A stretch of DNA of 64,000 nt from Herbidospora sakaeratensis (lineage in GTDB: Bacteria > Actinomycetota > Actinomycetes > Streptosporangiales > Streptosporangiaceae), in NCBI RefSeq assembly GCF_001570525.1, contig NZ_BBXC01000012.1, positions 438,576 through 502,575 on the forward strand, in the 5' to 3' direction. The position numbers were made by a program, and so were the translations under genes. Numbering within the stretch: position 1 is the first letter of the stretch; each line of letters starts with the position of its first letter. Below, in pieces: positions 6,757 through 24,213 of the stretch. The notes below the pieces were generated by a model. It did no database searches, was not told the DNA's origin, and was given only the letters and a program-made list of their open reading frames with translations.

Positions 6757-6766
6757 AGTGCTGTTC

Positions 6767-7483
6767 GTGACAGCGCGTATCGAGCGAGTGGTGACCTCGG
6801 GGGTCGTCGAGATCGACGACGTCGAGCACAAGGTTGAGAACAACACCTGGATCGTGGGTGACGACGACGAGGTCATCGTCATCGACCCCGCGCGCGACGC
6901 GGAGAAGATCCTGGAGAAGGTGGGCGAGCGGCAGGTCCTCGCCGTCATCTGCACCCACGGGCTGCCCGACCACGTCGGCGGCGCCATCGAGGTGGCCGCC
7001 CGCGACGAGGCCGTGATCGCCCTGAGCCCCAAAGACAAGCGTCTGTGGCGGCAGACCTGGGAAGACACCTGGCCCGACATCGAGATGGAGGACGAGGGCC
7101 TGTTCGCCGTCGCCGACACCGAACTCGAGGTCATGAACACCCCGGGCGTGACCGCGGGCGGCGTGTCGCTGCTGGCCGAGTCGCTGGGCGTGGTGTTCAC
7201 CGGCAAGACCCTGCTGGCCGACGGCCCGGGCAAGCTCGGCGGCGAATACCCGGCCCTGGCCGACCAGCTCACCTCGATCGGCGAGCGGCTCTTCACCCTT
7301 CCCGGTGACACCCGGGTGCTCCCCGCCCACGGCGAGGAGACCACGATCGGCGACCTGGAGCCCCTGTTCGACCGGTGGCTCTCCGGTTCGCTGACCGCCG
7401 ACCCCGAGGAGCAGCAGCAGGAGGGCCCGCTGACCGACGGCACCCGCGTGTCGGGCATCCGCCTCAACGCCAACGACGACTGA
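6767..7483 (+). CDS. Metallo-beta-lactamase-fold protein with degenerate metal site
   Basis: This 238-residue protein follows the actinobacterial MBL-fold hydrolase pattern (N-terminus TARIERVVTSG, then NNTWIVGDDDEVIVIDPARD) but lacks several zinc ligands. H-x-H-x-D-H reads H64-G-L66-P-D68-H69, so the second His is Leu. The HTPGH motif is NTPGV128. The TGDT motif is TGK147T. Only H64, D68, H69 and the C-terminal H188 (PAHGE) remain. It probably cannot hold the normal two-metal centre and may be non-catalytic or use another mechanism. GTG at 6767 is preferred over GTG at 6758 because TAGAGT ends seven bases upstream (leaderless pattern) and family homologues begin at this residue. Confidence 0.8.
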   Translation: MTARIERVVTSGVVEIDDVEHKVENNTWIVGDDDEVIVIDPARDAEKILEKVGERQVLAVICTHGLPDHVGGAIEVAARDEAVIALSPKDKRLWRQTWEDTWPDIEMEDEGLFAVADTELEVMNTPGVTAGGVSLLAESLGVVFTGKTLLADGPGKLGGEYPALADQLTSIGERLFTLPGDTRVLPAHGEETTIGDLEPLFDRWLSGSLTADPEEQQQEGPLTDGTRVSGIRLNANDD

Positions 7484-7488
7484 GCGCG

Positions 7489-8322: not shown

Positions 8323-8330
8323 AGCAGGCG

Positions 8331-9206
8331 CTAACGGGACAGCATCGTGCTCTCGGCCGTGTTCCAGAAGCGGGTCAGGGCCGCCGCCGTCGTCTCCGGG
8401 GCCTCGACCGCGGGGGAATGGACCGCCCCCGGCACCACGACGCATTCGCAGTCGAGCCGGTCGGCCATCTCGGCCTGCAGGCGGGGCGGCCAGCCGTCGT
8501 CGTGCTCCCCGTAGAGGACCAGGGTCGCCAGGCCCGATTCGGCCAGTTCGTCGACGCGGTCGTCGGCGTCGAGGACCGCCCGGCCCATGGACTCCAGCCC
8601 CACCAGGGAGTTGGCGAACAGGCGGCGGCGGAGGAAGGCCACGATCTCCTCGGGGACCCCGGCGCGCAGCGCGTCGGGTTCCATCTTCTCGGTCCACATG
8701 GCTTCGAGGCCGAGCTCGGGCATCTTCGCCAGCATGCGCCGGCCGGCCGCCTCGCGGGCGCCGACCATGCCGGCCGGGCCGGAGCTCATGAGGGTGTACG
8801 ACGCCAGTTTGCCGGTGCCGTCGAGCACCGTCTCGCGGGTGACGAGGCCGCCGAACGAGTGGCCCAGCAGGTGGACGGGCTCTCCGCCGCCCACGACGGC
8901 CACCAGGGAGTCGACGTCGCGGCCCAGGGCCGCGCAGGTGTAGGCGGCGGGGTCGTCGGGGCCCGGCGTCTCGAACTGGCCGCGCAGATCGATGGCCACC
9001 ACGCGGCGGCCCGCCTGGGCCAGGGTCTGCAGCACCGAGAGGAAGTCTTCCTTGCTGCCCGTGTAGCCGGGCACCAGCAGGGCCGGCCACCGGTCGGGCA
9101 GCCCGCTGCCGGGCAGGGCCTCAAGGGCGGCGAACACCCCTTCAGGGGTTTCGATCCGCTTCGGGCTCACTCCGGGTGGCAGGTCCAGGAATCTCGGCGT
9201 ACTCAC
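8331..9206 (-). CDS. Alpha/beta-fold hydrolase
   Basis: This 291-residue protein shows the alpha/beta hydrolase order: oxyanion region LLVPGYTGSKEDF, strand RRVVAIDLRGQFETPGPDD, nucleophile elbow GHSFGG (Ser about 118), acid region LVLYGEHDDGWPP, and a C-terminal His in VPGAVHSPAVEAP. No cap domain allows a precise substrate. The start is GTG at 9206; TATCGT lies eight bases upstream with no ribosome site. It is convergent with the RecB-like gene (9 bases between stops) and lies downstream of the helicase terminator. Confidence 0.8.
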   Translation of the reverse strand: MSTPRFLDLPPGVSPKRIETPEGVFAALEALPGSGLPDRWPALLVPGYTGSKEDFLSVLQTLAQAGRRVVAIDLRGQFETPGPDDPAAYTCAALGRDVDSLVAVVGGGEPVHLLGHSFGGLVTRETVLDGTGKLASYTLMSSGPAGMVGAREAAGRRMLAKMPELGLEAMWTEKMEPDALRAGVPEEIVAFLRRRLFANSLVGLESMGRAVLDADDRVDELAESGLATLVLYGEHDDGWPPRLQAEMADRLDCECVVVPGAVHSPAVEAPETTAAALTRFWNTAESTMLSR

Positions 9207-9227
9207 GTGAAGCCACGATACTGAAAC

Positions 9228-9264
9228 CCGCAGGGCGCCGCAGATGAGCAGCGGAGCCCTGCGG
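9228..9264 (-). terminator. Hairpin terminator after the DEAD-box helicase gene
   Basis: CCGCAGGGC (9228-9236) and GCCCTGCGG (9256-9264) pair perfectly, and an inner CCGC/GCGG pair can extend the fold. It lies 9 bases beyond the helicase stop codon. There is no long T-run, which is normal in high-GC actinomycetes. Confidence 0.65.
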
Positions 9265-9272
9265 TGTCAGGG

Positions 9273-11021
9273 CTAGTTCCGGCGCGGACGCGGGCGGTTG
9301 CCGCCGGAGCCGGAGTGACGGCCGTTGCCGCGCGCGGCCTTGCGCTCGGTGGCGGCCGAGGGCGCGGGCAGGTCGTCTTCGGTGGCCAGGTCGGGCGAAC
9401 GGAAGACGATCGCGAACGGGCTGGCCGGGATGATCTTCTCGGGTTCGGCCGGCCGGGTGGTCTCCATGGGAGTCACCTCCACCTCTTCCTCAACTTCGTG
9501 AATCTCATCGTGAATCGGATCGAGGATGTCGCCCTCGAAGAGGGCGGGTGCCTCGGGAACCTCGGGGACCTCGACGACCTTGTCGGCCTCGACGACGTCG
9601 GCGATGGTCTCGGTGACCGTCTCGGCGACCGTCTCGGTGACATCGTCGGACGTGCGGCCGCCACGGGTGCGACGGCGGTTGCGGGCCGGGCGCTCCCTGC
9701 GCTCGTCCTTCTCCCTGTCGCGGTCCTTGTCGCGGTCACGGTCCTTGTCGCGGCGGCTGCGGGTGCGGCCGGTCTCGCCGAGGTCTTCGATCTCCTCGGC
9801 GTCGAGGCCGGCCCGCGAGCGGTTGGCGCGCGGCAGCACGCCCTTGGTGCCCGGCGGGATGCGCAGCTCTTCGAGCAGGTGGGGCGAGCTGGAGTAGGAC
9901 TCGGCCGGCTCGGGGTTGCCGAGGCCCAGCGCGTTGTTGATGACCTTCCAGCGGGTCATCTCGGTCCACTCCATGAACGTCACCGCGACGCCGGTGCGAC
10001 CGGCCCGGCCGGTCCGGCCGATGCGGTGGACGTAGGTCTTCTCGTCCTGCGGCAGGTCGTAGTTGACCACGTGGGTGACGTCGTCGATGTCGATGCCGCG
10101 GGCCGCCACGTCGGTGGCCACCAGCACGTCGATCTTGCCGTTGCGGAACGCCCGCAGGGCCTGCTCGCGCTGGCCCTGGCCGAGGTCGCCGTGGACGGCC
10201 GCCGCCGCGAACCCGCGGTCGCGCAACTGCTCGTGGACCATGTCGCAGGCCCGTTTGGTCTCGCAGAAGACCATCGTGAGGCCCCGGCCCTCGGCCTGCA
10301 GCAGCCGGGACAGGATCTCGATCTTGTCCATCCGGTGGGTGCGGTAGACGAACTGGGTGACCTGCGAGGGGGCGTCGTTCTCCGCCTCGGTGGTCTCCGC
10401 GCGCACGTGGATCGGACGGGTCAGGTAGCGCCGCGACAGGGCCACGATCTCGCCCGGCATGGTGGCCGAGAAGAGCATGGTCTGCCGCTGTTCCGGCACC
10501 AGCTTGATGATGCGTTCGATGTCGGGCAGGAAGCCCAGGTCGAGCATCCGGTCGGCCTCGTCGAGCACCATCATGGTGATCTGGCTGAGGTCGAGGTGCT
10601 TCTGCTTGATCAGGTCGAGCATCCGGCCCGGGGTGCCGACGATCACGTCGACCCCGCTCTTGAGCGCCTCGACCTGCGGCTCGTAGGCGCGCCCGCCGTA
10701 GACGGTCAGGATGCGGGAGCCGAGCTTCCCGGCGGCCAGGACCAAGTCTTCGGTCACCTGGAGAGCCAGCTCACGGGTCGGGACCAGAACGAGGCCCCGG
10801 GGCTTCTTGCGGTTCTTGCGTGGCTTCCCGACGGACTGGAGCATCGCGACGCCGAAGGCGTAGGTCTTGCCGGTGCCGGTGCGGGCCTGGCCGATGACAT
10901 CCTGGCCGGACAGCGCGAGGGGGAGAGCCATCTCCTGAATCGGGAAAGGTGAGACGATGCCCTCGGTCTCCAGGGCATCGGCGATCTCTGGGATGACACC
11001 CAGGTCTCGGAACGTCGTAAT
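9273..11021 (-). CDS. DEAD-box ATP-dependent RNA helicase, apparent ATT start
   Basis: This 582-residue protein has all superfamily-2 motifs: Q motif (FPIQEMALPLA), Walker A (ARTGTGKT), Ia (PTRELALQ), DEAD (VLDEADRMLDLGF), SAT (LFSATMP), and the second RecA domain to HRIGRTGRAG. A long Arg/Glu/Asp-rich tail (about residues 400-582) is typical of actinobacterial cold-shock/RNA-decay helicases. Homologues begin M-T-T-F-R-[DE]-L. Here that position is ATT-ACG-ACG-TTC (11021), with GAGG nine bases upstream and no in-frame ATG, GTG or TTG nearby. The alternative is GTG at 11186, which would add 55 residues that look non-coding. The first in-frame ATG downstream would delete part of the Q motif. 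Confidence 0.85.
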   Translation of the reverse strand: MTTFRDLGVIPEIADALETEGIVSPFPIQEMALPLALSGQDVIGQARTGTGKTYAFGVAMLQSVGKPRKNRKKPRGLVLVPTRELALQVTEDLVLAAGKLGSRILTVYGGRAYEPQVEALKSGVDVIVGTPGRMLDLIKQKHLDLSQITMMVLDEADRMLDLGFLPDIERIIKLVPEQRQTMLFSATMPGEIVALSRRYLTRPIHVRAETTEAENDAPSQVTQFVYRTHRMDKIEILSRLLQAEGRGLTMVFCETKRACDMVHEQLRDRGFAAAAVHGDLGQGQREQALRAFRNGKIDVLVATDVAARGIDIDDVTHVVNYDLPQDEKTYVHRIGRTGRAGRTGVAVTFMEWTEMTRWKVINNALGLGNPEPAESYSSSPHLLEELRIPPGTKGVLPRANRSRAGLDAEEIEDLGETGRTRSRRDKDRDRDKDRDREKDERRERPARNRRRTRGGRTSDDVTETVAETVTETIADVVEADKVVEVPEVPEAPALFEGDILDPIHDEIHEVEEEVEVTPMETTRPAEPEKIIPASPFAIVFRSPDLATEDDLPAPSAATERKAARGNGRHSGSGGNRPRPRRN

Positions 11022-11282
11022 CGTCGCCTGCCTCAGTCGTGTGGCGAAGGCGGTTTCGTGACCAAACGGGCTCGCGTGCCGGGTCCTTACGAAAGGCGCC
11101 TTCGACGTCGTACGCGACCGCGCGCAGCCAAACTCTCTGGGGGTTACCGGGAACAGATACCCCGGATCAACACAGTGCGGTCGCACTTCTCACCGAGCAG
11201 TCTACTCGATACCACAGCTGCTAACCGATTTGCGGCGTGTTTCGCATGTTTCTTCGAGAGACCCTGCCCCTACGCTGCTGCC

Positions 11283-11936
11283 ATGACCATTTCCCGGCCC
11301 GGTGTCGTCGACCTTCTGGGCGTGCTCGCCTACGCCGAGCTCACCGCGTTCCTCCGGATGGCGCAGGACGCCTCCGTGCTGGCCCCCTCGCTGACCGACA
11401 GGGCCGCGCTCGGCGACGTGGCGGCCACCGAATACGGCCACTTCCGGCTGGTGCGCGACCGGATCGCCGATCTCGGCGCCGACCCGGAGGAGGCGATGGC
11501 CCCGTTCGCCGACGCCCTCGACGCCTGGCACGAGCAGACCCAGCCGGGCGACTGGTACGAGGCCCTGGTGAAGGCCTACGTCGGCACCGGCCTGGCCGGC
11601 GACTTCTACCGGGTGGCCGCCCGCCGGGTCGACGAGGAGACCCAGAAACTGGTCGACCAGGCGCTGGCCGACGAGGCGCGCTCGGAACTGGTCGTCGAAC
11701 GCGTCAGGAAGGCGCTGGCGGAGGATCCGCGCCTGGGCGGCCGGCTGGCCCTGTGGGCGCGGCGGCTGGTCGGCGAGGCGCTGAGCCAGGCCCACCGGGT
11801 CGCCACGGCCCGGCCGGAACTGGCCGAACTGCTCGTCGACGGCGACGACCTGGCCGCCATCGGACGCATGTTCGCCCAGCTGACAGAGGAGCACGGCAAG
11901 CGGATGTCGGCGCTCGGGCTCACTCCCGGGGGCTGA
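11283..11936 (+). CDS. Ferritin-like fold protein (MiaE-like)
   Basis: This 217-residue, almost all-helical protein has acidic and His residues in the pattern of a ferritin-like diiron four-helix bundle: Glu in LAYAELTAF, E-x-x-H in ATEYGHF, Glu residues in RRVDEETQKLV and in DEARSELV, and a final TEEHGKRM. It corresponds to the ferritin-like/tRNA-hydroxylase-type proteins that lie next to a DEAD-box helicase in many actinomycetes; the real substrate is unknown. ATG at 11283 has TACGCT ending six bases upstream and no ribosome site, so the mRNA is probably leaderless. It diverges from the helicase gene across about 260 bases. Confidence 0.75.
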   Translation: MTISRPGVVDLLGVLAYAELTAFLRMAQDASVLAPSLTDRAALGDVAATEYGHFRLVRDRIADLGADPEEAMAPFADALDAWHEQTQPGDWYEALVKAYVGTGLAGDFYRVAARRVDEETQKLVDQALADEARSELVVERVRKALAEDPRLGGRLALWARRLVGEALSQAHRVATARPELAELLVDGDDLAAIGRMFAQLTEEHGKRMSALGLTPGG

Positions 11937-12182
11937 ATCAGGCGTCCCAGAGTAATGATCGAGAGGCGTGAAGGCGCCATTGGGTTGTACCGTGCGAGTT
12001 ATGAGGGCCTCGCGCCGCTACGGCAGTTCCTTGACAAGATGTGGACCGAACCGATGGGCCTCCCGCGCGGTGTTGCGCCGGGCGAGCTCAGGATGCCCGA
12101 CCATCAGCAGACGCAGGGACGACGCACACATCCCACGCAGACGTCCGCCGGGCTGTATCCACGGTCCCCGTTAGAAGCCAAT

Positions 12183-12209
12183 GGGCGCCGCCGTCCAAAA
12201 GCGGCGCCC
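12183..12209 (-). terminator. Perfect hairpin terminator after the DUF3107 gene
   Basis: GGGCGCCGC (12183-12191) pairs with GCGGCGCCC (12201-12209) around a nine-base loop that includes AAAA. It lies 12 bases past the DUF3107 stop codon. The rest of the 285-base space from 11937 to 12221 holds nothing I can identify. Confidence 0.75.
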
Positions 12210-12221
12210 GAAGGCGTTCAT

Positions 12222-12452
12222 CTAGAGAGTGCCGCCGAACCCGACCGAACGGCTGGCTCCCTCGCCGATCTCGATGAAGCCGAGCGCCGCTACGGGCACG
12301 ATCACCCGGTTTCCCTTGACGTCGGTGATGGAGAAGACGCCGCGGTCGGCCGCGAGCGCGTTGCGGATCTCCGCCTCGATCTCCTCGACGGTGAGGTCGG
12401 TCTCGACGACGAGTTCACGGTGCACCGACTGCACGCCGATCTTGATTTCCAT
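12222..12452 (-). CDS. DUF3107 family protein
   Basis: This 76-residue protein matches DUF3107 over its full length: MEIKIGVQSVHRELVVET, then a helix with VEEIEAEIRNALA, then NRVIVPVAALGFIEIGE and the C-terminal VGFGG. DUF3107 is a small, widespread actinobacterial family of unknown function. AAAGGGG lies a few bases before the ATG. The gene lies downstream of the TetR regulator gene on the same strand, an arrangement also found in Streptomyces, and is closed by the hairpin at 12183-12209. Confidence 0.85.
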   Translation of the reverse strand: MEIKIGVQSVHRELVVETDLTVEEIEAEIRNALAADRGVFSITDVKGNRVIVPVAALGFIEIGEGASRSVGFGGTL

Positions 12453-12532
12453 CTGGGCCCCTTTCGAGAGGGTTCCATCGTGGCCCCCGGAATCGCCGCG
12501 GCAGAGCCCTGATCGCGGCGGGCGTAAACCGG

Positions 12533-13153
12533 CTAGGTCGTGCGGGGGAAACCGCCGATGCCGCGCCAGGCGAGACGGGCGATGAGCCCGGCCGCGGCGT
12601 CTTTCGGGATCGCGCCGCCGCTGGTCAGCCAGTAGCGGGCGCTGACCTCGGCCATGCCGACGAGCCCGACGCCGAGCAGGTGGGCGTCTTCGCTGGAGCA
12701 GCCGGTGTCCTCCTGGATCACCTCGGCGATCGCGTCGGCGCTCTGCCGCAGCGAGCGTTCCATGCGCTCGCGCACGGCCGCGACGTTGCGCAGGTCGCTC
12801 TCGAAGACCAGGCGGAAGGCCTCGCCCTGGCTGGAGACGAAGTCGAAGAACGCGCCGATGGCGGCCTGGACACGCTGCTTGTTGTCGGTCGTGGAGGCCA
12901 GCGCCTCCTTGCAGCGCGAGACCATGTCGTCGACGTGGACGTCGAGCAGCGCCAGGTAGAGCTCGAGCTTGCCCGGGAAGTGCTGGTAGAGCACCGGCTT
13001 GCTGACGCCGGCCCGCTCGGCGATCTCGTCCATGGCGGCGGCGTGGTAGCCGTTCTCGACGAAGACCTCTTGGGCGGCGCTGAGCAGCTGGCGACGGCGG
13101 GCGAGCCGGGGCAGCCGGGTGCCCCGGGGCTTGGCGTCCGGGGTAGCGGTCAC
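12533..13153 (-). CDS. TetR/AcrR family transcriptional regulator
   Basis: This 206-residue protein has an N-terminal helix-turn-helix domain typical of TetR: LLSAAQEVFVENGYHAAAMD, IAERAGVSKPVLYQHFPGKL, ELYLALL. The C-terminal domain (about 75-206) would bind an unknown ligand. GTG at 13153 is selected because AAGGAGAG ends five bases upstream; a GTG 15 bases earlier lies before the ribosome site. The sequence around ASTTDNKQRV and FRLVFESDLRN matches a conserved actinobacterial TetR group near the DUF3107 gene. Direct targets are not evident; no clear palindrome is seen between the start and the next gene. Confidence 0.9.
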   Translation of the reverse strand: MTATPDAKPRGTRLPRLARRRQLLSAAQEVFVENGYHAAAMDEIAERAGVSKPVLYQHFPGKLELYLALLDVHVDDMVSRCKEALASTTDNKQRVQAAIGAFFDFVSSQGEAFRLVFESDLRNVAAVRERMERSLRQSADAIAEVIQEDTGCSSEDAHLLGVGLVGMAEVSARYWLTSGGAIPKDAAAGLIARLAWRGIGGFPRTT

Positions 13154-13228
13154 GGCCTCTCCTTGCACGCGGGCTTCATCGATCGGGTTTCCTGGCGGGG
13201 GCCACCATCCTACGGCTGGGCCACCAGG

Positions 13229-13436: not shown

Positions 13437-14303
13437 CTACGGGAACAGGTCTCCGGACGCCTCGACCCGTGCCAGCACATCGGACGTGGTGAACCTGAGC
13501 TGGTCGGGGTGGTCGCAGCCGGCCACTTCTTCCCAGGTCAGCGGGGTGGAGACGGTCGGATGCGGGTTGGCGCGCATCGAGTAGACGGCGACGGTGGTCT
13601 TGGCCGGGTTGTTCTGGCTCCAGTCGATGAACACCTTCCCCGGGCGTTCGCGTCTAGCCATCACGGCGGTGACGAAGTCGTGCCGGCGGGCCAGCCGTTC
13701 GGCGATCGCCCTGGCGAACTCCGAGGTGCTCACCTCCGAGGTCCACGGCACGTGGAGCTGCATGCCCTTGTTGCCGCTGGTCTTGGCGAAGCAGTCGAGG
13801 CCCTCGCCGGCCAGGGTGTCGCGCAGCAGCAGCGCCACCTCGCAGCACTCGACGATCGTCGCCGGGGCCCCCGGGTCGAGGTCGAAGACCAGCAGGTCGG
13901 GCGGCAGCGGGTCGCCGTCGGGGGAGACCCGCCACATGGGCACGTGCAGTTCCAGGGCGGCCAGGTTGGCGTAGTAGACCAGAGTCGGCAGGTCGTCGAC
14001 GATCGCGAAGTCGATGGTCTCGCGGTCCTTGGTGCTGCCGGGGACGGGCAGACGTACACGGCGGACCCACGACGGCGTGTGGGCGGGCGCGTTCTTCTCG
14101 AAGAAGAAGGCCCCGCCGACGCCGTTCGGGTAGCGCTTCACGGTGAGCGGGCGCCCGCGCAGATGGGGGAGCAGGACCGGCGCGATCCGGGTGTAGTAGT
14201 CGATCACCTCGGCCTTGGTGAACCCGGCCTCCGGGTAGAGGGTCTTGCCGAGGTTGGTCAGCACCAGGTCACGGCCCTCGACCTGGACGGGCACCTTCTT
14301 CAC
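13437..14303 (-). CDS. ligD-pol: NHEJ primase/polymerase (LigD polymerase domain, stand-alone)
   Basis: This 288-residue protein is the archaeo-eukaryotic primase-type polymerase domain of LigD. Visible features: LTNLGKTLYPEAGFTKAEVI at the N-terminus, LRGRPLTVKRYPNGV, the metal-binding D-x-D in LLVFDLDPG, AKTSGNKGMQLHVP, and VFIDWSQNN (third acidic residue) with KTTVAVYSMRA. In NHEJ it adds (ribo)nucleotides at broken ends before sealing. The GTG at 14303 overlaps the TGA of the ligase gene (GTGA), indicating translational coupling. No 3'-phosphoesterase domain is fused to it or encoded nearby. Confidence 0.9.
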   Translation of the reverse strand: MKKVPVQVEGRDLVLTNLGKTLYPEAGFTKAEVIDYYTRIAPVLLPHLRGRPLTVKRYPNGVGGAFFFEKNAPAHTPSWVRRVRLPVPGSTKDRETIDFAIVDDLPTLVYYANLAALELHVPMWRVSPDGDPLPPDLLVFDLDPGAPATIVECCEVALLLRDTLAGEGLDCFAKTSGNKGMQLHVPWTSEVSTSEFARAIAERLARRHDFVTAVMARRERPGKVFIDWSQNNPAKTTVAVYSMRANPHPTVSTPLTWEEVAGCDHPDQLRFTTSDVLARVEASGDLFP

Positions 14304-15229
14304 AACCGCACCTCCGCCGGGATCTTGTCCGGCCGCAGGCCGCGCCAGGCGGGGGCGCGCAGGCGTCCCTCGGTGGTCTGGTTGGCGTAGGCGACCTCGC
14401 CGACGATCTCGGGGCGCACCCAGCGCGCGTCTCTGGCGATCTCCCGGGGCAGTTCTCTCGTGTACGCGCTGCGCGGGATCTCCAGCGGTGCGAGCAACGC
14501 GTGAAGCTCGTCGAGGGCGGCGTCGCTGAACCCCGTGCCGACATGACCCAGGAAGACGAAGCCGTCGGGGCCGAAGGCCCCCATCAGCAGCGACCCGATG
14601 CCGCCCGATCTGCGGCCCTTGCCCGGCCGCCAGCCGCCGATGACGACCTCGCGTTCGGTCACGTTCTTCACCTTGACCCACCAGGGTGACCGGGTGCCCG
14701 GTCGGTACCGCGAGTCGACGTGCTTGGCCACCACCCCTTCGAGCCCCTGCTCGACGGTGGCCGCCACCACGTCGGGGTGGCAGGGAAAGGTGGGCGCGAC
14801 CGTGATGCCGAGCGACTCCAGCAGCGCCCGCCGTTCGTGGTAGGGCCGGTCGAGCAGCGCCTCGCCGTCGAGGGCGAGCAGATCGAAGGGCATGTACGTC
14901 ACCGGCACTGCCCGCAGCAGCCCGTGGGCGCCCGGGTCGCCGACGTGCATGCGCCGCTGGATCAGCTCGAACGAGGGTTTCCCGTCGTGGTCGAACGCGA
15001 CGACCTCCCCGTCGAGCACGACCGAGCGGCCGGGCACCTCCAGGCCGGCGACCTCGGGATAACGCCCGGTGACCTCGACGCCCCTGCGGCCGAACAGCCG
15101 GGGCGAGCCCTCCAGGTAGGCGAGCACCCGGATGCCGTCCCACTTGACCTCGAGCACGTAATGGGCGCCGTCCGACGGCAGCGGGCCGGGGACGGCGAGC
15201 ATCGGTTCGACCGGGTATGGCAGTGCCAC
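14300..15229 (-). CDS. ligD-lig: ATP-dependent DNA ligase (LigD ligase domain, stand-alone)
   Basis: This 309-residue protein is an ATP-dependent ligase of the LigD type. The adenylation motif I is E-V-K29-W-D-G-I-R, with K29 as the lysine that takes AMP. Downstream are LDGEVVAFD (motif III region), LEGVVAKHVDSRY (motif IV) and WVKVKN (motif V), then the OB-fold with GHVGTGFSDAALDEL. It seals broken ends in Ku-dependent NHEJ. GTG at 15229 starts the gene. It diverges from ku with about 77 bases between the starts, so both are probably controlled from one short promoter region. Confidence 0.9.
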   Translation of the reverse strand: MALPYPVEPMLAVPGPLPSDGAHYVLEVKWDGIRVLAYLEGSPRLFGRRGVEVTGRYPEVAGLEVPGRSVVLDGEVVAFDHDGKPSFELIQRRMHVGDPGAHGLLRAVPVTYMPFDLLALDGEALLDRPYHERRALLESLGITVAPTFPCHPDVVAATVEQGLEGVVAKHVDSRYRPGTRSPWWVKVKNVTEREVVIGGWRPGKGRRSGGIGSLLMGAFGPDGFVFLGHVGTGFSDAALDELHALLAPLEIPRSAYTRELPREIARDARWVRPEIVGEVAYANQTTEGRLRAPAWRGLRPDKIPAEVRL

Positions 15230-15306
15230 AGGGGGTATGTGCCCATTAGGTAAGTCATCTGAATCCCGACATGGCGGTATTCGAACACAGAGACGAGAAT
15301 GTGGCT

Positions 15307-16137
15307 ATGCGCAGCATCTGGAAGGGCGCCATCTCGTTCGGCCTGGTGACGATCCCCGTGAAGCTCTACTCGGCGACCGAGCAGAAGGACGTCTCCTTCC
15401 ACCAGGTGCACCGTGAGGACGGCGGCCGGATCAGATACAAGCGCGTGTGCACCGTCGACGGCGAAGAGGTCGCCTACGCCGACATCGCCAAGGGCTACGA
15501 ACTGCCCACCGGCGACATGGTGGTGCTGACCGACGACGACTTCGCCGACCTGCCGCTGTCGAGCTCCCGCCGCATCGACGTCCTCCAGTTCACCCCGGTG
15601 GAGCAGATCGACCCCATCTACTTCGCCAAGTCCTACTTCCTGGAGCCCGACGCCCAGGGCGCGAAGCCCTACGTGCTGCTGCGCGACGCGCTGGAGCGGT
15701 CGGGCCAGGTCGCGATCGTGAAGGTCGCGCTGCGTCAGCGCGAGTCGCTGGCCACCCTGCGGGTACGCGACGGGATCTTCGTCCTGGAGACGATGCTCTG
15801 GCCCGACGAGGTGCGCACCGCCGACTTCCCGTTCCTCGACGAGGACATCGACCTGCGCCCGCAGGAGCTCAAGATGGCCGAGTCGCTGATCGAGACGATG
15901 GTGGGCGACTTCGACCCGGGCGAGTACAAGGACGCGTACAGAGAGGCGCTCCAGGAGGTCATCGACGCCAAGGTGGCCGGGCGCGAGGTGATCCAGGCCG
16001 AGGCGCCGGCCGAGGCGGGCCCCGCCGTCGATCTCATGGCCGCCCTGCGGGCCAGCGTCGACGCCGCGAAGCGCGAACGCGAGGGCGTCCAGAAGAAGAA
16101 GGCGGAGCCCAAGAAGAAGACCCGCAAGACCGCCTAG
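15307..16137 (+). CDS. ku: Non-homologous end-joining protein Ku
   Basis: This 276-residue protein is a bacterial Ku: RSIWKGAISFGLVTIPVKLY, FHQVHREDGGRIRYKRVC, ILQF-like DVLQFTPVEQIDPIYF, YFLEPD, and FPFLDEDIDLRPQELKMAESL. It forms the homodimeric ring that binds DNA ends and recruits LigD. The last 25 residues are Lys-rich (KKKAEPKKKTRKTA), like the basic tails that help Ku bind DNA. ATG at 15307 is favoured because the family starts at this residue and GAGAAT ends exactly six bases before it (leaderless pattern); GTG at 15301 is the alternative. Confidence 0.95.
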   Translation: MRSIWKGAISFGLVTIPVKLYSATEQKDVSFHQVHREDGGRIRYKRVCTVDGEEVAYADIAKGYELPTGDMVVLTDDDFADLPLSSSRRIDVLQFTPVEQIDPIYFAKSYFLEPDAQGAKPYVLLRDALERSGQVAIVKVALRQRESLATLRVRDGIFVLETMLWPDEVRTADFPFLDEDIDLRPQELKMAESLIETMVGDFDPGEYKDAYREALQEVIDAKVAGREVIQAEAPAEAGPAVDLMAALRASVDAAKREREGVQKKKAEPKKKTRKTA

Positions 16138-16637: not shown

Positions 16638-17213
16638 CTAGTTGCGGTGCCAGCGGTACTGCTTGTGGAGGTGCCAGCCCTCCGTGAAGCCGCTGCGCGG
16701 GCTCCAGCGGTGACGCTTGAAGTGCGACTTGACCTTGTGGAAGTGGTGGCCGCCGTGGAAGCCGTGGCCCCAGCTGCCGCCGTCGCCGCCCCAGTCGCCG
16801 CCGCCGTCGCCGTCCCAGCCGCCGCCCCAGCCGCCACCGCCGTGGTGGTGGTGGCCGCGGACCGGGTGGCACTTACCGATGGTGTAACCACCGGAGTGCA
16901 GGTAGCCGACGATCCGGCTGCGGTGCCACGGGCGGTGGTAGACCCGCACGTAGTGACGGAAGCGGCCCGCCGGGAAGGCGCCGTGGTGCAGCTTCGGGTC
17001 CGCGTGGTGCGAGCCGTGCCGCACCTTGAAGACGCAGGTGTGGTTGTGGAAGTGGTGGTGACCGTGGTGACCGTGGTGCCCGTGGCCCCAGTCGTCACCC
17101 GACCACTCGTGGCCACCGCCGTCGGCGGCGGCGGGAGTCGCGATGGCGAGGACGGCGCCGCCGCCGACGAGGGCGGCGGTAGCCAGGGTGCTGGCGAGCT
17201 TCTTGAGCTGCAT
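16638..17213 (-). CDS. Histidine/glycine-rich secreted protein
   Basis: This 191-residue protein has a signal peptide (MQLKKLASTLATAALVGG ... ATPAAA). The mature part is extraordinary: His-rich runs such as HGHHGHHGHHHFHNH, a Gly/Asp/Trp-rich middle (GGGGWGGGWDGDGGG) and a basic C-terminus. Between the His runs is a short domain with two Cys (NHTCVFKVR, IGKCHPVRG) that resembles the small domain of the neighbouring secreted protein (GYLHSGGYTIG versus GYTQAGYLRRG). Metal binding or a wall-associated role is plausible but inferred. ATG at 17213 follows AAGGAG by six bases. It ends at its own strong hairpin, so it is a single-gene unit. Confidence 0.75.
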   Translation of the reverse strand: MQLKKLASTLATAALVGGGAVLAIATPAAADGGGHEWSGDDWGHGHHGHHGHHHFHNHTCVFKVRHGSHHADPKLHHGAFPAGRFRHYVRVYHRPWHRSRIVGYLHSGGYTIGKCHPVRGHHHHGGGGWGGGWDGDGGGDWGGDGGSWGHGFHGGHHFHKVKSHFKRHRWSPRSGFTEGWHLHKQYRWHRN

Positions 17214-17361
17214 CAATTACTCCTTGTGATTGGCTGGTGCCTGATCGTGTTATGTCCTCACTCTGCGTGACAAAACGGGCAGTATCCGGCTTTTGCGGTC
17301 ACTTAGCGTAGCCATGGAGTACGATGGGGTGGATTGTCCGTAAACGGCGGGAGGACGTGGC

Positions 17362-18350: not shown

Positions 18351-19532
18351 GTGTCGTTGCCACCGCTGGTCGAGCCGGCCCCCGAGCTCACCGTCGACGA
18401 GGTGCGCCGCTACTCGCGCCACCTGATCATCCCCGACGTCGGGATGACCGGGCAGAAGCGGCTGAAGAACGCCAAGGTCCTGTGTGTGGGCGCCGGCGGT
18501 CTCGGTTCCCCGGCCCTGATGTATCTGGCCGCGGCGGGCGTGGGCACGCTCGGCATCATCGACTTCGACGTCGTCGACGAGTCGAACCTGCAGCGTCAGA
18601 TCATCCACGGCCAGTCCGACGTCGGCCGCCTCAAGGCCGAGTCGGCCGCGGCGACCGTGCGCGAGATCAACCCGCTCGTCAACGTGGTGATCCACAACGT
18701 GGCCCTCACCACCGACAACGTGATGGACGTCTTCTCGGGCTACGACCTGATCGTCGACGGCACCGACAACTTCGCCACCCGCTACATGGTGAACGACGCG
18801 GCCGTGCTGCTCGGCAAGCCCTACGTGTGGGGCTCGATCTACCGCTTCGACGGCCAGGCCAGCGTCTTCTGGGCCGAGCACGGTCCCTGCTACCGCTGCC
18901 TCTACCCGGAGCCCCCGCCCCCCGGCATGGTGCCCTCGTGCGCCGAGGGCGGCGTGCTCGGTGTGCTCTGCGCCTCGATCGGCTCGATCCAGGTCAACGA
19001 GGCCATCAAGCTGCTGACCGGCATCGGCGACCCGCTGGTGGGCCGTCTGATGATCTACGACGCGCTCGAGATGAAGTACCGCGACGTGAAGGTCCGCAAG
19101 GACCCCGAGTGCGTGTTGTGCGGCAAGAACCCGACGGTCACCGCGCTGCTCGACGACTACGAGGCGTTCTGCGGCGTCGTGTCCGACGAGGCCCAGCAGG
19201 CCGCGCAGGGCTCGACCATCACCGCGCTGGAGCTCAAGAAGTGGCAGGACGACGGCGAGAACATCTACCTCGTCGACGTCCGCGAGCAGGGCGAGTACGA
19301 GATCGTCAACATCCCCGGCGCGACCCTGATCCCCAAGGGCGAGTTCCTCAACGGCTCGGCCCTGGAGAAGATGCCGCAGGACAAGAAGATCGTCCTGCAC
19401 TGCAAGTCGGGCGCGCGCTCGGCCGAGGTGCTCGCGGTGCTGAAGAGCGCCGGGTTCTCCGACGCCGTCCACGTCGGCGGAGGCGTGCTGAGCTGGGTCA
19501 AGACGGTAGACCCGTCTCAGCCGACTTACTGA
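18351..19532 (+). CDS. moeZ: Adenylyltransferase/sulfurtransferase MoeZ
   Basis: This 393-residue protein joins an E1-like ThiF/MoeB domain to a C-terminal rhodanese. The N-terminal domain has the ATP loop GAGGLGSPALMYLAAAGVG, DFDVVDESNLQRQ, and two zinc CxxC pairs (CYRC and CVLC). The rhodanese (about 280-393) has HCKSGARS, with the Cys that carries persulfide. MoeZ adenylates the C-terminus of small sulfur carriers (for Moco, thiamine or cysteine routes) and turns them into thiocarboxylates. GTG at 18351 follows GGGAGTGG. The moaE gene at 58.7 kb is the only other obvious Moco gene in the window. Confidence 0.95.
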   Translation: MSLPPLVEPAPELTVDEVRRYSRHLIIPDVGMTGQKRLKNAKVLCVGAGGLGSPALMYLAAAGVGTLGIIDFDVVDESNLQRQIIHGQSDVGRLKAESAAATVREINPLVNVVIHNVALTTDNVMDVFSGYDLIVDGTDNFATRYMVNDAAVLLGKPYVWGSIYRFDGQASVFWAEHGPCYRCLYPEPPPPGMVPSCAEGGVLGVLCASIGSIQVNEAIKLLTGIGDPLVGRLMIYDALEMKYRDVKVRKDPECVLCGKNPTVTALLDDYEAFCGVVSDEAQQAAQGSTITALELKKWQDDGENIYLVDVREQGEYEIVNIPGATLIPKGEFLNGSALEKMPQDKKIVLHCKSGARSAEVLAVLKSAGFSDAVHVGGGVLSWVKTVDPSQPTY

Positions 19533-19564
19533 TACGACCCATCTGGGCCGGTTACAGTCGGTCC

Positions 19565-20284
19565 GTGACGGAAAGACGCAGTTGGCCGGCGCTCGTCGTG
19601 GCGTCGGCCCTCACCGTGAGCTGCGCGGTCGTCGCGGGGGTGGGGGTCAGTTCGGCGATGACCGAGCTGACCCGTGGCCCCACCAAGCAGGAACGCCGCG
19701 CCGCCGCCGCCGAGGAACTGGCCCGCCGCTGGCGCACCTGGCCGGCCGGCAAGATCTTCCCCGAGCGGCTCGGCTACACCTCCGAGCAGGGCGGCCGTGA
19801 GGTCGCCCGCCGGGTCGGCATCGGCCCCGAGACCGACTGCGCGCGGGCCGTCGACGCCGCGCTGCGCACCGCGATGGACGACGCCGGCTGCCGGGGCCTC
19901 ATCCGCGCCACCTATCTCGACGCCGTCGAGGGCGTCGTGGTCACCATCGGGGTGGCCGCCTTCCGCGACGCCGCCGCCGTGATGGCCGCCACCACCGCGC
20001 TGCCCCGCGAACACCGCCCCTCTCCGGGCCTGCGGCCCCTGACGTTCGCCAAGACCGCCACCGAGCGGTTCACCGCCGCCGGCCGCCAGTACGGCACCTA
20101 CCACCGGGCCGGGCCCTATCTCGTGATGGTCACCGCCGGGCAGGCCGACGGCCGCCCCGCCAAGGCCCTCGACCGCCCGATGACCTCGATGTTCACCTTC
20201 ACCGACGAGCTCTCGGAGCAGATCGCCCGCGGCCTGGTCGCGCCCGAGCCCGCGACCTGCGAGTCGGAGGGCTTCCTGTGCTGA
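19565..20284 (+). CDS. Membrane-anchored protein paired with mycosin-like protease (copy 1)
   Basis: This 239-residue protein has one N-terminal membrane helix (about 8-30) and an outside domain with ARRWRTWPAGKIFPE, GREVARRVGIGPETDC, CRGLIRATYLDAVEGVVVTIGV and a C-terminal pair of Cys (CESEGFLC). The protein at 21530-22363 is a clear paralogue with the same blocks. GTG at 19565 has TACAGT ending six bases upstream and no ribosome site, indicating a leaderless transcript. The next gene's GTG lies inside its last codons (overlap of seven bases), so the protein and the protease are coupled. The family is unknown to me; a role as partner or inhibitor of the protease is inferred from the arrangement. 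Confidence 0.75.
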   Translation: MTERRSWPALVVASALTVSCAVVAGVGVSSAMTELTRGPTKQERRAAAAEELARRWRTWPAGKIFPERLGYTSEQGGREVARRVGIGPETDCARAVDAALRTAMDDAGCRGLIRATYLDAVEGVVVTIGVAAFRDAAAVMAATTALPREHRPSPGLRPLTFAKTATERFTAAGRQYGTYHRAGPYLVMVTAGQADGRPAKALDRPMTSMFTFTDELSEQIARGLVAPEPATCESEGFLC

Positions 20285-21477
20285 TCCGGGCCCTCGCGGC
20301 GGCGCTCCCGCTGCTCCTCCTGTCCGTCCCGGCCTACGCCGACGGCGTGCGGGGCGGCCAGACCGGCACGCTCGGCATGATCGGCATCAACCAGGCCTGG
20401 CGCGAGACCAAGGGCGACGGCGTCCTGGTGGCCGTGCTCGACTCGGGCGTCGACCCCGACCACCGCGACCTCGCGGGGTCGGTCAGGGTGGGCCGCGACT
20501 TCACCAAGGGCGCCAACCCGGCCGGCGTGCGGCCCCAGCGGCTGCACGGGACGTACATGGCCTCGCTGGTCGCCGGGCACGGCCACGGGCCCGGCGGGCG
20601 CGACGGCGTGATCGGGGTCGCCCCGGAGGCCGAGATCCTGTCGGTCCGGGTGATCCTGGAGGACGACGAACCCGGCTTCAAGAAGTTCAACATGGACGAG
20701 CGCTACGAGAGCGTGATGGCCAAGGGCATTCGGTACGCCGTCGAAGAGGGCGCCGACGTGATCAACCTGTCGATCGCCAAGGGCGCCGCGACGGAGGACG
20801 ACCGGGCGGCGGTGGCGTACGCGATCTCCCGGAACGTGGTGCTGGTCGCGGCGGCCGGGAACGACGGCGCCGAGGACGCCGGGGGCCACTACTCCTACCC
20901 GGCCTCGCTGCCCGGGGTGATCTCGGTCGCGGCGGTGACCGGAACGATGCAACGGGCCTTCTTCTCCACCCGCAACGCCTCGGTGATGCTGGCCGCGCCG
21001 GGGGTCGACATCCTCGGGGCCGGGCCCGGCGACGAATACTGGGTCGGCCGGGGCACGTCCCAGGCGACGGCGCTGGTGTCCGGGGTGGCCGCCTTGATAA
21101 AGGCGAAATATCCGAAGATGTCGCCCGCGTTGGTGGCCCAGGCCCTCGCCGGCTCGGCCGTCGCCCCCAAGGGCGCCGGCTACAACACCGGCACCGGCTT
21201 CGGCGTCGTCAACGCCGGCCGCGCGCTGACCGCGGCGGCCCGGCTCGCCGGGCATAGACCGACCGCTTCGGGGAAGGAGGCCCACGATCCCGACCGCCCC
21301 TTCTCCGCCGCCTCCCCGCAGCCGATCGCCATGGTGAAACGCGACCGCCGGATGATCACCTTCTACGGCGCGGCGGGCGTCGCCGGGCTCCTCGGCGCAG
21401 GTGGCAGCGTCGCCGTGATCGTCGTCTGCGCCCGCCGCGCGCGGCGCAGGGAGGCTTCACCAGAAATCGCCACCTAG
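20278..21477 (+). CDS. S8 subtilisin-like serine protease, mycosin-like (active copy)
   Basis: This 399-residue protein has a signal peptide (about 1-21), a subtilase domain and a C-terminal membrane helix (about 355-378) followed by an Arg-rich tail. This is the layout of mycosins, the membrane-bound proteases of type VII secretion systems. The catalytic triad is intact: D55 (VLDSGVD), H90 (LHGTYMAS) and S261 (GTSQATALVSG), with the oxyanion Asn at N195 (AAGND). No ESX core genes (eccB/C/D, WXG100) are in the window, so a T7SS link is by family likeness only. The GTG start overlaps the stop of the membrane protein gene before it. Confidence 0.9.
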   Translation: MLIRALAAALPLLLLSVPAYADGVRGGQTGTLGMIGINQAWRETKGDGVLVAVLDSGVDPDHRDLAGSVRVGRDFTKGANPAGVRPQRLHGTYMASLVAGHGHGPGGRDGVIGVAPEAEILSVRVILEDDEPGFKKFNMDERYESVMAKGIRYAVEEGADVINLSIAKGAATEDDRAAVAYAISRNVVLVAAAGNDGAEDAGGHYSYPASLPGVISVAAVTGTMQRAFFSTRNASVMLAAPGVDILGAGPGDEYWVGRGTSQATALVSGVAALIKAKYPKMSPALVAQALAGSAVAPKGAGYNTGTGFGVVNAGRALTAAARLAGHRPTASGKEAHDPDRPFSAASPQPIAMVKRDRRMITFYGAAGVAGLLGAGGSVAVIVVCARRARRREASPEIAT

Positions 21478-21529
21478 GAGACCTCTACCGAATCGTTGGC
21501 GTATGGAGTCTTCGGCGTAACATTGAGGA

Positions 21530-22363
21530 ATGTCGCCACAGCAGCCGCGAGCCCAGCGAACGCGGGTGCGCGCATGGCCGGCCACACGTGGGCGCGCGGC
21601 GGCGGTCCAGGAGGCCAAGGAGCGGCGGGAGCTCGAGAAGGGCGTCCGCCGCCGCGGCATCGTCACGAGCCTGCTGACGGCCGCGGTGCTGGTGGCGGCC
21701 GTCAACGCGGTGATCGCCGGGGTGGGCATCGTCCAGGAGACCCGGTCCCGGCCCCTGACCGGCCAGGAACGCGCCGACTACGTGAAAGAGGACGTCGCGC
21801 GCCGCTGGCACGACTGGCCGGCCTCGATGGTCTTCCCCGACGAGCTCGAATACGTCGGCCTGGCCCGCTCGCAGCAGTTCGCCCGCCGGGTCGGCATCGC
21901 CCCCGAGATCCCCTGCTGGGCGGGGGTCGACCGCTCGGTCGCCTCGGTCTTCCGCGAGGTGTCGTGCCGGTCGCTGCTCCGGGCGACCTACGTCGACCAG
22001 TCGGGCGCGTTCGCGATCACCATCGGCGTGGCCGTCATGGCCGACGAGGACGCCCGCACCGCCGCCGCCGCGAAACTGCCGATCGACGACCGGGTCGGGG
22101 TGCGGCCGGTGGCCTTCCCGGGCACCGTGACCGACCTGTTCGGCGCGGCCCAGCGGCAGCGCTCGGGCTGGGTCGGGGTGGGGCCGTACATCGTCTTCTA
22201 CACCGCCGGGTACACCGACGGACGCACCCGTGACGCGATCCCGCAGGAGGAGCTGTTGCACAGCGAGCTGTGGCCGACCGCGCAGGCCCTCGGCGGCCGG
22301 GTGGCCCGGTCGCTGGGCGAGGAGCCCGAGGTGCCGCGCTGCACCCAGGGGAACGAGTGCTGA
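21530..22363 (+). CDS. Membrane-anchored protein paired with pseudo-mycosin (copy 2)
   Basis: This 277-residue protein is the paralogue of the protein at 19565-20284, with a longer basic N-terminal cytoplasmic part (about 1-42), a membrane helix (about 43-68) and the same outside domain: ARRWHDWPASMVFPDELEY, FARRVGIAPEIPC, CRSLLRATYVD, VTIGV-like AITIGVAV, and a final Cys pair (CTQGNEC). A promoter TTGGCG (21496-21501), 16-base spacer, TAACAT (21518-21523) ends six bases before the ATG, so the mRNA is predicted to start at the initiation codon. The following gene starts within its last codons, repeating the architecture of copy 1. Confidence 0.75.
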   Translation: MSPQQPRAQRTRVRAWPATRGRAAAVQEAKERRELEKGVRRRGIVTSLLTAAVLVAAVNAVIAGVGIVQETRSRPLTGQERADYVKEDVARRWHDWPASMVFPDELEYVGLARSQQFARRVGIAPEIPCWAGVDRSVASVFREVSCRSLLRATYVDQSGAFAITIGVAVMADEDARTAAAAKLPIDDRVGVRPVAFPGTVTDLFGAAQRQRSGWVGVGPYIVFYTAGYTDGRTRDAIPQEELLHSELWPTAQALGGRVARSLGEEPEVPRCTQGNEC

Positions 22364-23484
22364 GGGCGGCCGCCCTGGCGGCGGCCGCGCTGCTGGCCGT
22401 CGCGGCGGCCCCGCCCCCGCTCGACGACCTCGGCGTCGACGCCGCCTGGGCCGAGACCAAGGGCGCCGGGGTGACGGTGGCGCTGCTCCACGACCGCGTC
22501 GGCGAGCCGGCCGGGCTGAAGGGCCGCGTCGTCCAGGCCCCCGACATGACAGGAACGTTCTTCGAGGGCGACGAGATGCGCACCAACGACTACTCGACCG
22601 TCCTGGCCGGGCTGGTCGCGGGGAACGGGACCGGCGGCGGCCCCCAGGGCACCGCGCCCGAGGCCACCGTGTTGTCGGTGCCGATCACCTCGATGCCCCT
22701 CGAAGGCGGTCTGGTCGACCCCGAGGGCGCCCAGGGCACCCCGCTCGACAGCCCGATCGCCCGCGGCGTGCGCTACGCCGTCAACCACGGCGCCCAGGTG
22801 ATCGTGGTCCCGATGGGCATCTTCGGCGTCGGCCGGGTCGAGCGCGACGCCGTGGCCTACGCCCTCCAGCGCGACGTGGTGATCGTCTCGGGGGCGGGCG
22901 ACATCGGCCAGTGGCCCTCGTCCACCACCAACGGCACCTCCTACTGGCAGTTCCCGGCGGGCTTCCCCGGCGTGATCGGGGTGGCCGCCGTCGACGACGC
23001 GGGTGTGCGCGCCCCCGCGAGCTCCGACAACCTCTCGGTGCTGGTCGCCGCCCCGGGCGTGCGCATCCCGGCGGGTCAGACCGGCGGGCGGCCCTTGGCG
23101 GTGAACGGCACCCAGGCGGCCAGCGCCCTCGTGGGAGGGGTGGCCGCCCTGATCCGGGCCGAACACCCCCGGTTGCCCGCTGAACTGGTCGCCCGGTCGG
23201 TGTCCGACTCGGCCGGGCCCCACCCCGGCAACGGCTACGACGACAAGGTCGGCTTCGGCGTGGTGAACGCGGGCAAGGCGCTGGCCCGCGCGGGAGAGCT
23301 GGCGAAATACCAGGAAGAGGTGCCGGTGGGCGGCGACCTCCACTTCGGCGGGGGGCCGAAGTCGGCCGGTCCGCAACCGCCCGGCCCCGACCCGCTCCGC
23401 TTGTGGGTGTACGGTGCGGGCGCGGTGGTGAGCCTGGCCGCCTTCGGCCTTCTCGCCGGGCTGCTGGCCCGCAGACGGAGATGA
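22357..23484 (+). CDS. Mycosin-like subtilase with lost catalytic triad (pseudoprotease)
   Basis: This 375-residue protein is a paralogue of the active protease at 20278-21477: signal peptide, subtilase-like domain, C-terminal membrane helix and Arg tail. All the catalytic positions have changed. The Asp is His45 (VALLHDRVG against VAVLDSGVD), the His aligns with Tyr79, the Ser is Gln253 (GTQAASALVGG against GTSQATALVSG), and the oxyanion Asn is Asp182. The fold-determining stretches (GVGFVN-like VGFGVVNAGKAL, GVAALIRAEHP) are well kept and the reading frame is intact, so it is maintained as a protein without protease activity. GTG at 22357 overlaps the preceding gene's end by seven bases. 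Confidence 0.85.
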   Translation: MLRAAALAAAALLAVAAAPPPLDDLGVDAAWAETKGAGVTVALLHDRVGEPAGLKGRVVQAPDMTGTFFEGDEMRTNDYSTVLAGLVAGNGTGGGPQGTAPEATVLSVPITSMPLEGGLVDPEGAQGTPLDSPIARGVRYAVNHGAQVIVVPMGIFGVGRVERDAVAYALQRDVVIVSGAGDIGQWPSSTTNGTSYWQFPAGFPGVIGVAAVDDAGVRAPASSDNLSVLVAAPGVRIPAGQTGGRPLAVNGTQAASALVGGVAALIRAEHPRLPAELVARSVSDSAGPHPGNGYDDKVGFGVVNAGKALARAGELAKYQEEVPVGGDLHFGGGPKSAGPQPPGPDPLRLWVYGAGAVVSLAAFGLLAGLLARRRR

Positions 23485-23551: not shown

Positions 23552-23911
23552 ATGGGTTACGAGCTGCGCGTCGAGCGTGAATCACCGCTCGCCTACGCCG
23601 AACTCGTCCGCGCGTTGTCGGGCCATTCCGACCTCGAGGTGCGCGGATCGGCCGAGGCGGGAGAGGTCGTCGCGCGGCATGGCGACGACGGCCACCGGGT
23701 CGCCGAGTGGTCGGGCCGGCTGTTCGGCTCGCCCGAATCCGACTGGCACCTCGCCCACCTGGCGCGCGTCGCCGAGCTGCTGGGCGGACGGCTGGTCGGC
23801 GAGGACGGCGAGGTCTACGGCGTCCGCGACGGCATTCTGGAACAGGGCGACGTCGAGTTCGGCAAGGTGGAGGACCTCCTCTACGCCGGACCGACAAGCT
23901 GGAGCCAATGA
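23552..23911 (+). CDS. Hypothetical protein
   Basis: This 119-residue soluble protein starts MGYELRVERESPLAYAELVR and contains VAEWSGRLFGSPESDWHLAHL and LLGGRLVGEDGEVYGV. It looks like a small alpha/beta domain. I do not recognise the family. Its ATGA overlap with the alkyltransferase-like gene shows the two are one transcript. ATG at 23552 lies eight bases after a TATCGT -10-like hexamer. An imperfect inverted repeat (TTGCCCTT ... AAGGGGCAA, about 23501-23529) lies upstream and could be an operator. Confidence 0.7.
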   Translation: MGYELRVERESPLAYAELVRALSGHSDLEVRGSAEAGEVVARHGDDGHRVAEWSGRLFGSPESDWHLAHLARVAELLGGRLVGEDGEVYGVRDGILEQGDVEFGKVEDLLYAGPTSWSQ

Positions 23912-24213
23912 ACGATCACCCGCCGCCGTTCGCCGACCGGGTCCTCGACCTGGTCGAACGGATCCCGCCCGGGAGGGTCATGTCGTACGGCGACGTGGCC
24001 GAATATCTCGGTGAGGGCGGGCCCCGGCAAGTGGGGCGGGTGATGGCCACCTGGGGCGGCGCCGTCCCGTGGTGGCGCGTGATCAGAACCGATGGGAGCC
24101 CGCCGCCGGGCCTGGAGGCCGAATGTCTCCGCAGGTGGCGTACGGAAGGAACACCGGTGAAAGGGGAACGCGCATTGATGCGTGAGGCACGATGGGACGG
24201 AATCCCCCTTTAA
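23908..24213 (+). CDS. Alkyltransferase-like (ATL) / MGMT-family DNA-binding protein
   Basis: This 101-residue protein is the DNA-binding domain of O6-alkylguanine DNA alkyltransferases: FADRVLDLVERIPPGRVMSY, VGRVMATWGGAVPWWRVIRT. The active-site motif PCHR is PWWR here, so the alkyl-accepting Cys is missing and replaced by Trp. That is the mark of ATL proteins, which bind alkylated guanine and hand the lesion to nucleotide excision repair. Its ATG overlaps the stop of the preceding gene (ATGA). The two-gene unit suggests that the unknown 119-residue protein may work with it. Confidence 0.85.
   Translation: MNDHPPPFADRVLDLVERIPPGRVMSYGDVAEYLGEGGPRQVGRVMATWGGAVPWWRVIRTDGSPPPGLEAECLRRWRTEGTPVKGERALMREARWDGIPL

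Follow-up and report, generated by a model that had tools for sequence, protein, structure and literature searches.

A conserved, predicted catalytically dead subtilase in a tandem array of mycosin-like membrane proteases of Streptosporangiaceae

Why would a bacterium keep a protease gene whose product has lost its catalytic residues? The question is raised by a 64,000-nucleotide stretch of the 8.6 Mb genome of Herbidospora sakaeratensis (contig NZ_BBXC01000012.1, positions 438,576 to 502,575; hereafter the window), in which two like units lie head to tail, each pairing a membrane partner (P1, P2) with a mycosin-like membrane subtilase (M1, M2). Comparison with related genomes shows the arrangement to be ancient: two coupled units in tandem, each consisting of a membrane-anchored extracytoplasmic P protein and a membrane-anchored M protease. 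Judged from the sequences, the catalytic triad of M2 was lost once, in an ancestor of Herbidospora, Acrocarpospora, Planotetraspora, Microtetraspora, Microbispora, Sphaerimonospora and relatives. Since then the dead M2 has been retained under purifying selection, with its frame, fold invariants, anchor and coupling unchanged.

Two coupled membrane protease units

The genes of the array and their junctions are as follows.

19565..20284, plus strand: P1, membrane partner with an N-terminal membrane helix (by sequence), an extracytoplasmic domain, four conserved cysteines and a C-terminal cysteine
20278..20284, plus strand: GTGCTGA, in which the Cys codon and stop of P1 overlap the start of M1
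20278..21477, plus strand: M1, mycosin-like membrane subtilase; D55, H90, N195 and S261 form an intact triad with oxyanion Asn
21530..22363, plus strand: P2, membrane partner ending in CTQGNEC; structure model with a predicted local distance difference test (pLDDT) score of 86
22357..22363, plus strand: GTGCTGA, in which the Cys codon and stop of P2 overlap the start of M2
22357..23484, plus strand: M2, predicted pseudoprotease with a subtilisin fold and a C-terminal membrane helix; H45, Y79, D182 and Q253 stand at the catalytic places

Both proteases match the Pfam family Peptidase_S8 (E values of 1.2e-44 for M1 and 2.6e-17 for M2), and the best NCBIfam model for each is T7SS_mycosin (TIGR03921), with 263 bits for M1 and 159 for M2 against a cut-off of 278.75. 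As a test for mycosins of the ESX (type VII) secretion systems this cut-off is useless here, two of four ESX-locus mycosins from the same family also falling below it. M1 has the Asp-His-Ser triad and oxyanion Asn of an active S8 peptidase and M2 of the window does not; the residues and coordinates that the initial annotation gave for both proteases were correct. By Pfam match, structure model and Foldseek search, M2 has the subtilase fold, as a predicted non-peptidase homologue. Its model (pLDDT 82) shows a subtilisin fold and a helix at residues 346-374, and Foldseek matched it to subtilisin BPN' at 4e-22 and to MycP1 (4m1z) at 6e-20. Sequence and model agree with the claim that signal peptide, fold, membrane anchor and frame have all been retained.

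The two units are distant copies. M1 and M2 are 38% identical over 365 columns, and P1 and P2 are likewise 38% identical over 208 aligned columns; the duplication is therefore old. In both, the last codon and stop of the partner (TGC TGA) overlap the GTG start of the protease. The P2 model has a long N-terminal helix (17-71) followed by a domain (78-263), and 34 columns are invariant in all 59 P rows aligned, including four cysteines (C129, C146, C271 and C277 of P2).

Loss of the M2 triad and conservation of the dead copy

A search with the P2 alignment gave 106 confirmed loci, the best 80 of which form the set referred to below as the named loci. The order P1-M1-P2-M2, whose occurrence in other genomes the initial annotation had put up for checking, is present in 79 of these 80, and the contig of the remaining one begins inside P2. 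M1 has the intact Asp-His-Asn-Ser set (DHNS) in 80 of 80 cases (79 named loci and the window). In M2 the same set is complete in 52 of 81 (named loci and window) and the triad is lacking in 29, distributed over Herbidospora (7), Acrocarpospora (5), Planotetraspora (6), Microtetraspora (5), Microbispora (3), Sphaerimonospora (2) and one metagenome-assembled genome (MAG). The proposal that the second protease is catalytically dead is in keeping both with the four residues found in the window and with this wider occurrence of triad-less M2. All seven Herbidospora genomes combine HYDQ in M2 with DHNS in M1, so the pattern seen in the window is not due to chance. Over the dead copies as a whole the catalytic string varies (HYDQ, HYDG, SYDG, GDDG, GADP, DEDG, DHDD and others). 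A further 20 loci of the family, some of them from genomes already counted, all carry a DHNS M1; of the 18 among them with an M2, 8 have a dead copy. At locus L204 the dead M2 reads EANE and so retains the oxyanion Asn; the exchange of Asn for Asp, though found in 29/29 named dead M2, was accordingly dropped as a hallmark of the dead clade. As a side observation, 'Microtetraspora sp. NBRC 13810' (L082/L087) has a live M2 that clusters not with other Microtetraspora but with Spongiactinospora and Streptosporangium sp. KLBMP 9127, and its genus label may be wrong.

The initial annotation had held that orthologous loci with an intact second triad would point to recent random loss. Such loci exist (the 52 above), but they lie outside a single dead clade. 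In a quick tree of 81 M2 and 15 M1 sequences, computed without the catalytic columns, all 29 dead M2 group in a single clade with a Shimodaira-Hasegawa-like approximate likelihood ratio test (SH-aLRT) value of 97, and a careful tree with more genera places 22 dead M2 rows together (97/93). Because all 29 fall into one clade and the intact M2 lie outside it, a single old loss is indicated rather than recent random decay. The least certain member is the MAG, which sits on a long branch in the quick tree and whose M1 groups elsewhere (82); a second genome of its kind joins it in the careful tree.

Since the loss, the dead copies have evolved like functional genes. Median ratios of nonsynonymous to synonymous substitution (dN/dS, NG86) for dead M2 are 0.22 in Herbidospora, 0.31 in Acrocarpospora, 0.26 in Planotetraspora and 0.27 in Microtetraspora, and those for M1 of the same genera are 0.21, 0.20, 0.24 and 0.21. 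Live M2 gave 0.29 in Nonomuraea, 0.48 in Streptosporangium and 0.49 in Planobispora (one pair). The ratio of M2 to M1 distance is 1.45 in dead-dead pairs (347) and 1.40 in live-live pairs (1320), from which it follows that M2 did not accelerate after losing its triad. The 132 live enzymes compared share 47 invariant columns, and 38 of these are conserved at ≥93% in dead M2. The other nine, with the share kept, are D55 (21%), H90 (3%), M94 (10%), S165 (0%), A191 (41%), N195 (0%), A227 (59%), S261 (0%) and A289 (79%). The D, H, N and S columns define 'dead' and so differ by definition; M94 and S165 do not. We take S165 to be the S1-pocket serine (Ser125 of subtilisin); among named dead M2 it has become Pro in 28/29, and N195 has become Asp in 29/29.

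Coupling to the partner is conserved as well. A C-terminal Cys ends P1 in 79/79 and P2 in 80/80 named loci, and the protease frame is open from the overlap in 76/79 cases for M1 (exceptions L117, L121 and L143) and in 80/80 for M2. Taken together, the clade-wide loss of the triad and the purifying selection on the gene identify M2, by sequence, as a retained pseudoprotease. The suggestion that the dead copy is kept and not decaying is upheld by its single clade, low dN/dS, held invariants and unchanged rate.

A second dead lineage, M3, was recovered by searching 250 genomes of the family with a profile of three other dead copies. Reading of the best 30 loci gave 18 with M3 (19 dead copies, 14 genus codes) and 12 with live M1; the lineage is thus represented in 14 other genera of that GTDB family. 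M3 forms a clade of its own (100/100), with dead M2 as a separate clade (94/93), and a common origin placing all 26 dead rows together was rejected (approximately unbiased test, p 0.021), with long branches in play. At L217 (genome G139, 5000-13200) the order is moeZ, P1, live M1, P3, three dead M3, P2, live M2 and MGMT, and the three consecutive dead M3 share one P. The initial annotation had assigned each protease a dedicated membrane partner; coupling of the two holds in 79/80 named loci, but because of the shared P at L217 'dedicated' is not general. Separately, one M3 copy (L175/L218) reads SERS, keeping the catalytic Ser with Asp, His and Asn lost, and is perhaps an intermediate.

P-like domains were also seen in two other envelope proteins of the window genome (contig 11; L152 1400-1935 and L153 1300-1800); one of them caps a long Pro-rich protein, with no adjoining protease in the stretch read.

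Possible roles of the dead protease

Retention of the dead copy suggests a job that needs the shape of M2 and not its chemistry. The main work of M2 may already have been non-catalytic before the triad was lost, so that catalysis could go while the body stayed. This work would most likely be structural: outside the membrane, M2 may assemble with M1 on or next to the P proteins, much as MycP5 subunits associate with one another in ESX-5, and may hold, cap or gate the assembly, or present substrate, while M1 cuts. Such a system would work without an ESX secretion apparatus. We see roughly an even chance that the array forms a mycosin-like, ESX-independent envelope assembly of this kind, a putative complex in which M1 cuts and M2 serves non-catalytically.

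The nearest precedent for a body kept without its chemistry is found in the ESX mycosins themselves. According to PMC5082899, catalysis and substrate binding by MycP are dispensable for ESX-1 and ESX-5 secretion and the protein stabilises the complex, which establishes a catalysis-independent role; PMC8131196 places a MycP5 trimer over EccB5. Like MycP1 and MycP5, M1 and M2 are subtilases with a signal peptide and a C-terminal membrane helix, T7SS_mycosin is their best NCBIfam model, and the M2 model resembles MycP1. They differ from ESX mycosins in that they are coupled to a P protein, form their own clade and lie in a tandem array with a conserved dead member; no EccB was found in the window genome, and in relatives the array is independent of EccB. 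Among open-licence PubMed Central papers we found none on dead mycosins.

Co-variation hints at joint work of the two units. After the contribution of moeZ, MGMT, ABH and X had been removed by regression, partial correlations over 76 genomes were 0.38 for M1-M2 and 0.35 for P1-P2, followed by P1-M2 (0.25), P2-M2 (0.23), P1-M1 (0.17) and M1-P2 (-0.09).

Several observations weigh against a structural partnership of M1 and M2. Both proteases are live in 52/81 loci, which shows that the array as such can do without an inactive partner. Only 10 of 18 M3 loci show a live P-M unit in the stretch read; at L187, L189, L190 and L191 there is none within ~5 kb of M3, and at four further loci where none was seen the stretches are cut short. 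The residual correlations do not favour pairing with the own partner over P1-P2 and M1-M2 (P1-M1, at 0.17, is below P1-M2, at 0.25), and the M1-M2 and P1-P2 values could stem from shared family-specific rates or composition. Finally, 16 columns fixed at ≥93% in dead M2 differ or vary in live M2, which could reflect a new rather than an old role, although shared descent would look identical.

A broader proposal is that P-M arrays are an undescribed, ESX-independent system of envelope proteolysis, in which a protease subunit has been made permanently non-catalytic at least twice (M2 and M3) and the scaffold role is older and general; we consider this possible, with the balance somewhat against it. 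If true, the scaffold role known for ESX mycosins would be an older, general property of this subtilase branch. To our knowledge, conserved sets of active and dead subtilases in bacteria are known mainly from the clostridial Csp proteins. The arrays provide a second case. Here the proteins are anchored in the membrane, the set is found across many genera and has originated at least twice, and close relatives have an intact second member. This amounts to a natural experiment on the roles of mycosins beyond cutting, since one protein can be compared in its catalytic and non-catalytic forms at an unchanged place in the gene order, and it does so in non-pathogenic soil bacteria without or with ESX.

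Alternatively, M2 (with P2) may after losing catalysis have taken on the sensing of a ligand or substrate and now turn M1 on or off, in the way that CspA and CspC act on CspB; this is a doubtful but serious candidate. The Csp proteins of Clostridioides are the nearest precedent for a live/dead set. According to PMC12880746, they are subtilases of which one active and two dead members are coded together; all are active in some clostridia, CspA and CspC are dead in Peptostreptococcaceae, the dead members deriving from active ones in one lineage, and CspA and CspC form a sensing heterodimer and are essential signalling parts. The evolutionary pattern is the same as that of M2, and residues fixed specifically in dead copies, such as S165P and N195D, would suit a sensor. 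The Csp proteins differ from the array in being soluble spore proteins of another subtilase family with no membrane anchor and no P partner, and the Csp exception models of NCBIfam match weakly (1e-7 for M1, 0.11 for M2). Opposed to a newly acquired sensing role are the unchanged rate upon triad loss, the live M2 with the same place and partner in 52/81 loci, and the Asn retained in the dead M2 of L204.

The P proteins give sensing a further hint. PknH_C (Pfam PF14032) matches 10/59 P rows at E≤0.1, the best at 4e-7, and in PknH the sensor domain contains a cleft and two disulfides (PMC4118811, citing Cavazos et al.); P for its part has four conserved Cys. Window P1, however, stays under the cut-off (0.0087; 16.4 bits against 27), window P2 has no match, and similarly weak matches arise in 3 of 14 control genomes. 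Neither the P profile against PDB sequences (no match at E≤10) nor a Foldseek search for P (best 0.035, nothing at 0.001) supported the assignment, and a PknH-type sensor domain in P is a hint only.

It is also conceivable, though unlikely, that M2-P2 acts independently of M1 as an envelope binding or scaffold protein and has stayed at the locus by descent. P2 is at least as conserved as P1 (in dead-dead pairs the mean distances are 0.27 for P2 and 0.33 for P1), M3 has no live unit nearby in at least four loci, and P2 has a conserved promoter-like box of its own. The predicted boxes of the window are:

19553..19558, plus strand: TACAGT, a TANNNT-type box 6 nt 5' of the P1 GTG; predicted leaderless-type promoter
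21518..21523, plus strand: TAACAT box 6 nt 5' of the P2 ATG; predicted leaderless-type promoter

The initial annotation had given each unit its own leaderless promoter. A scan for E. coli-type consensus promoters found no match, but a TANNNT box stands 5-8 nt before an in-frame start in 60/79 named loci for P1 and 52/80 for P2. The background over all ATG and GTG in the same loci is 354/36521 (1%), and a fair value is somewhat higher because several starts were tried per locus. Before P2 the form CGTARCAT is the same in 9/9 aligned loci; the P2 box is missing in Nonomuraea. Against independence of the second unit stand the P1-M1-P2-M2 order in 79/80 loci and the residual M1-M2 and P1-P2 correlations.

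A link to ESX, with M2 being an ESX mycosin or its triad having gone upon loss of ESX, is very improbable. The sequence is of mycosin type, and in the first 60 genomes EccB was present in 8/8 tandem-locus genomes with live M2 and 0/9 with dead M2. In a wider set (49 of the 80 named-locus genomes), however, EccB is found in 6/26 genomes with dead M2 and missing from 8 of the 23 with live M2 (present in 15/23), which breaks any strict link of triad loss to ESX loss; a statistical lean towards EccB with live M2 is left over and follows clades. Five genomes with a live single-copy member of the M2 lineage (G008, G017, G023, G030 and G035) also lack EccB. In a quick tree the proteases of P-M units group together (SH-aLRT 98), and four ESX-locus mycosins from the same family lie on the other side (100). 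Neither tree grouping nor ecc genes in the host genome mark M1 or M2 as ESX mycosins. EccB was not found in the window genome by a model that matches 17/60 relatives; EccD was not found either, with a model that gave no match in controls. The statement that no ESX genes are present holds genome-wide for EccB and EccD as searched.

That M2 is still an enzyme, by shifted residues or other chemistry, is highly unlikely: Asp occupies the oxyanion place in 29/29 named dead M2, but the nucleophile place holds G, Q, D or P with no substitute Ser common to all, His is lost in 28/29 and the pocket Ser is Pro in 28/29. A decaying relic of recent random loss, for which the differing residues at the catalytic places might speak, is close to negligible, and is refuted by the one clade of six named genera and a MAG, the open frames, dN/dS of 0.22-0.31 and the retained fold invariants.

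Neighbouring genes and other observations

The two units lie between moeZ on one side and X and MGMT on the other.

18351..19532, plus strand: moeZ, conserved upstream flank, outside the system
23561..23911, plus strand: X, conserved neighbour of 116 residues without a Pfam or NCBIfam match
23908..24213, plus strand: MGMT-like gene, conserved downstream flank, named provisionally from its sequence

Among the first 60 relatives, six genomes of the same genus and ten of other genera (L039-L054) show the order ABH-moeZ-P1-M1-P2-M2-X-MGMT. The block from moeZ through MGMT is present in 76/80 named loci, the other four (L076, L131, L133 and L139) ending at contig edges. X is kept between M2 and MGMT in ~78/80 named loci (the L139 contig stops before it); no X was found at the single-copy loci L055-L062. 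L066 (G057) and other f20 genomes, which belong to a different family of the class, carry a single live P-M-like pair whose P has no terminal Cys.

Elsewhere in the window, a 192-residue frame on the minus strand (16638-17216) is His/Gly-rich and secreted-looking, and frames at 13437-16137 resemble a LigD-type ligase/polymerase and Ku (named by eye).

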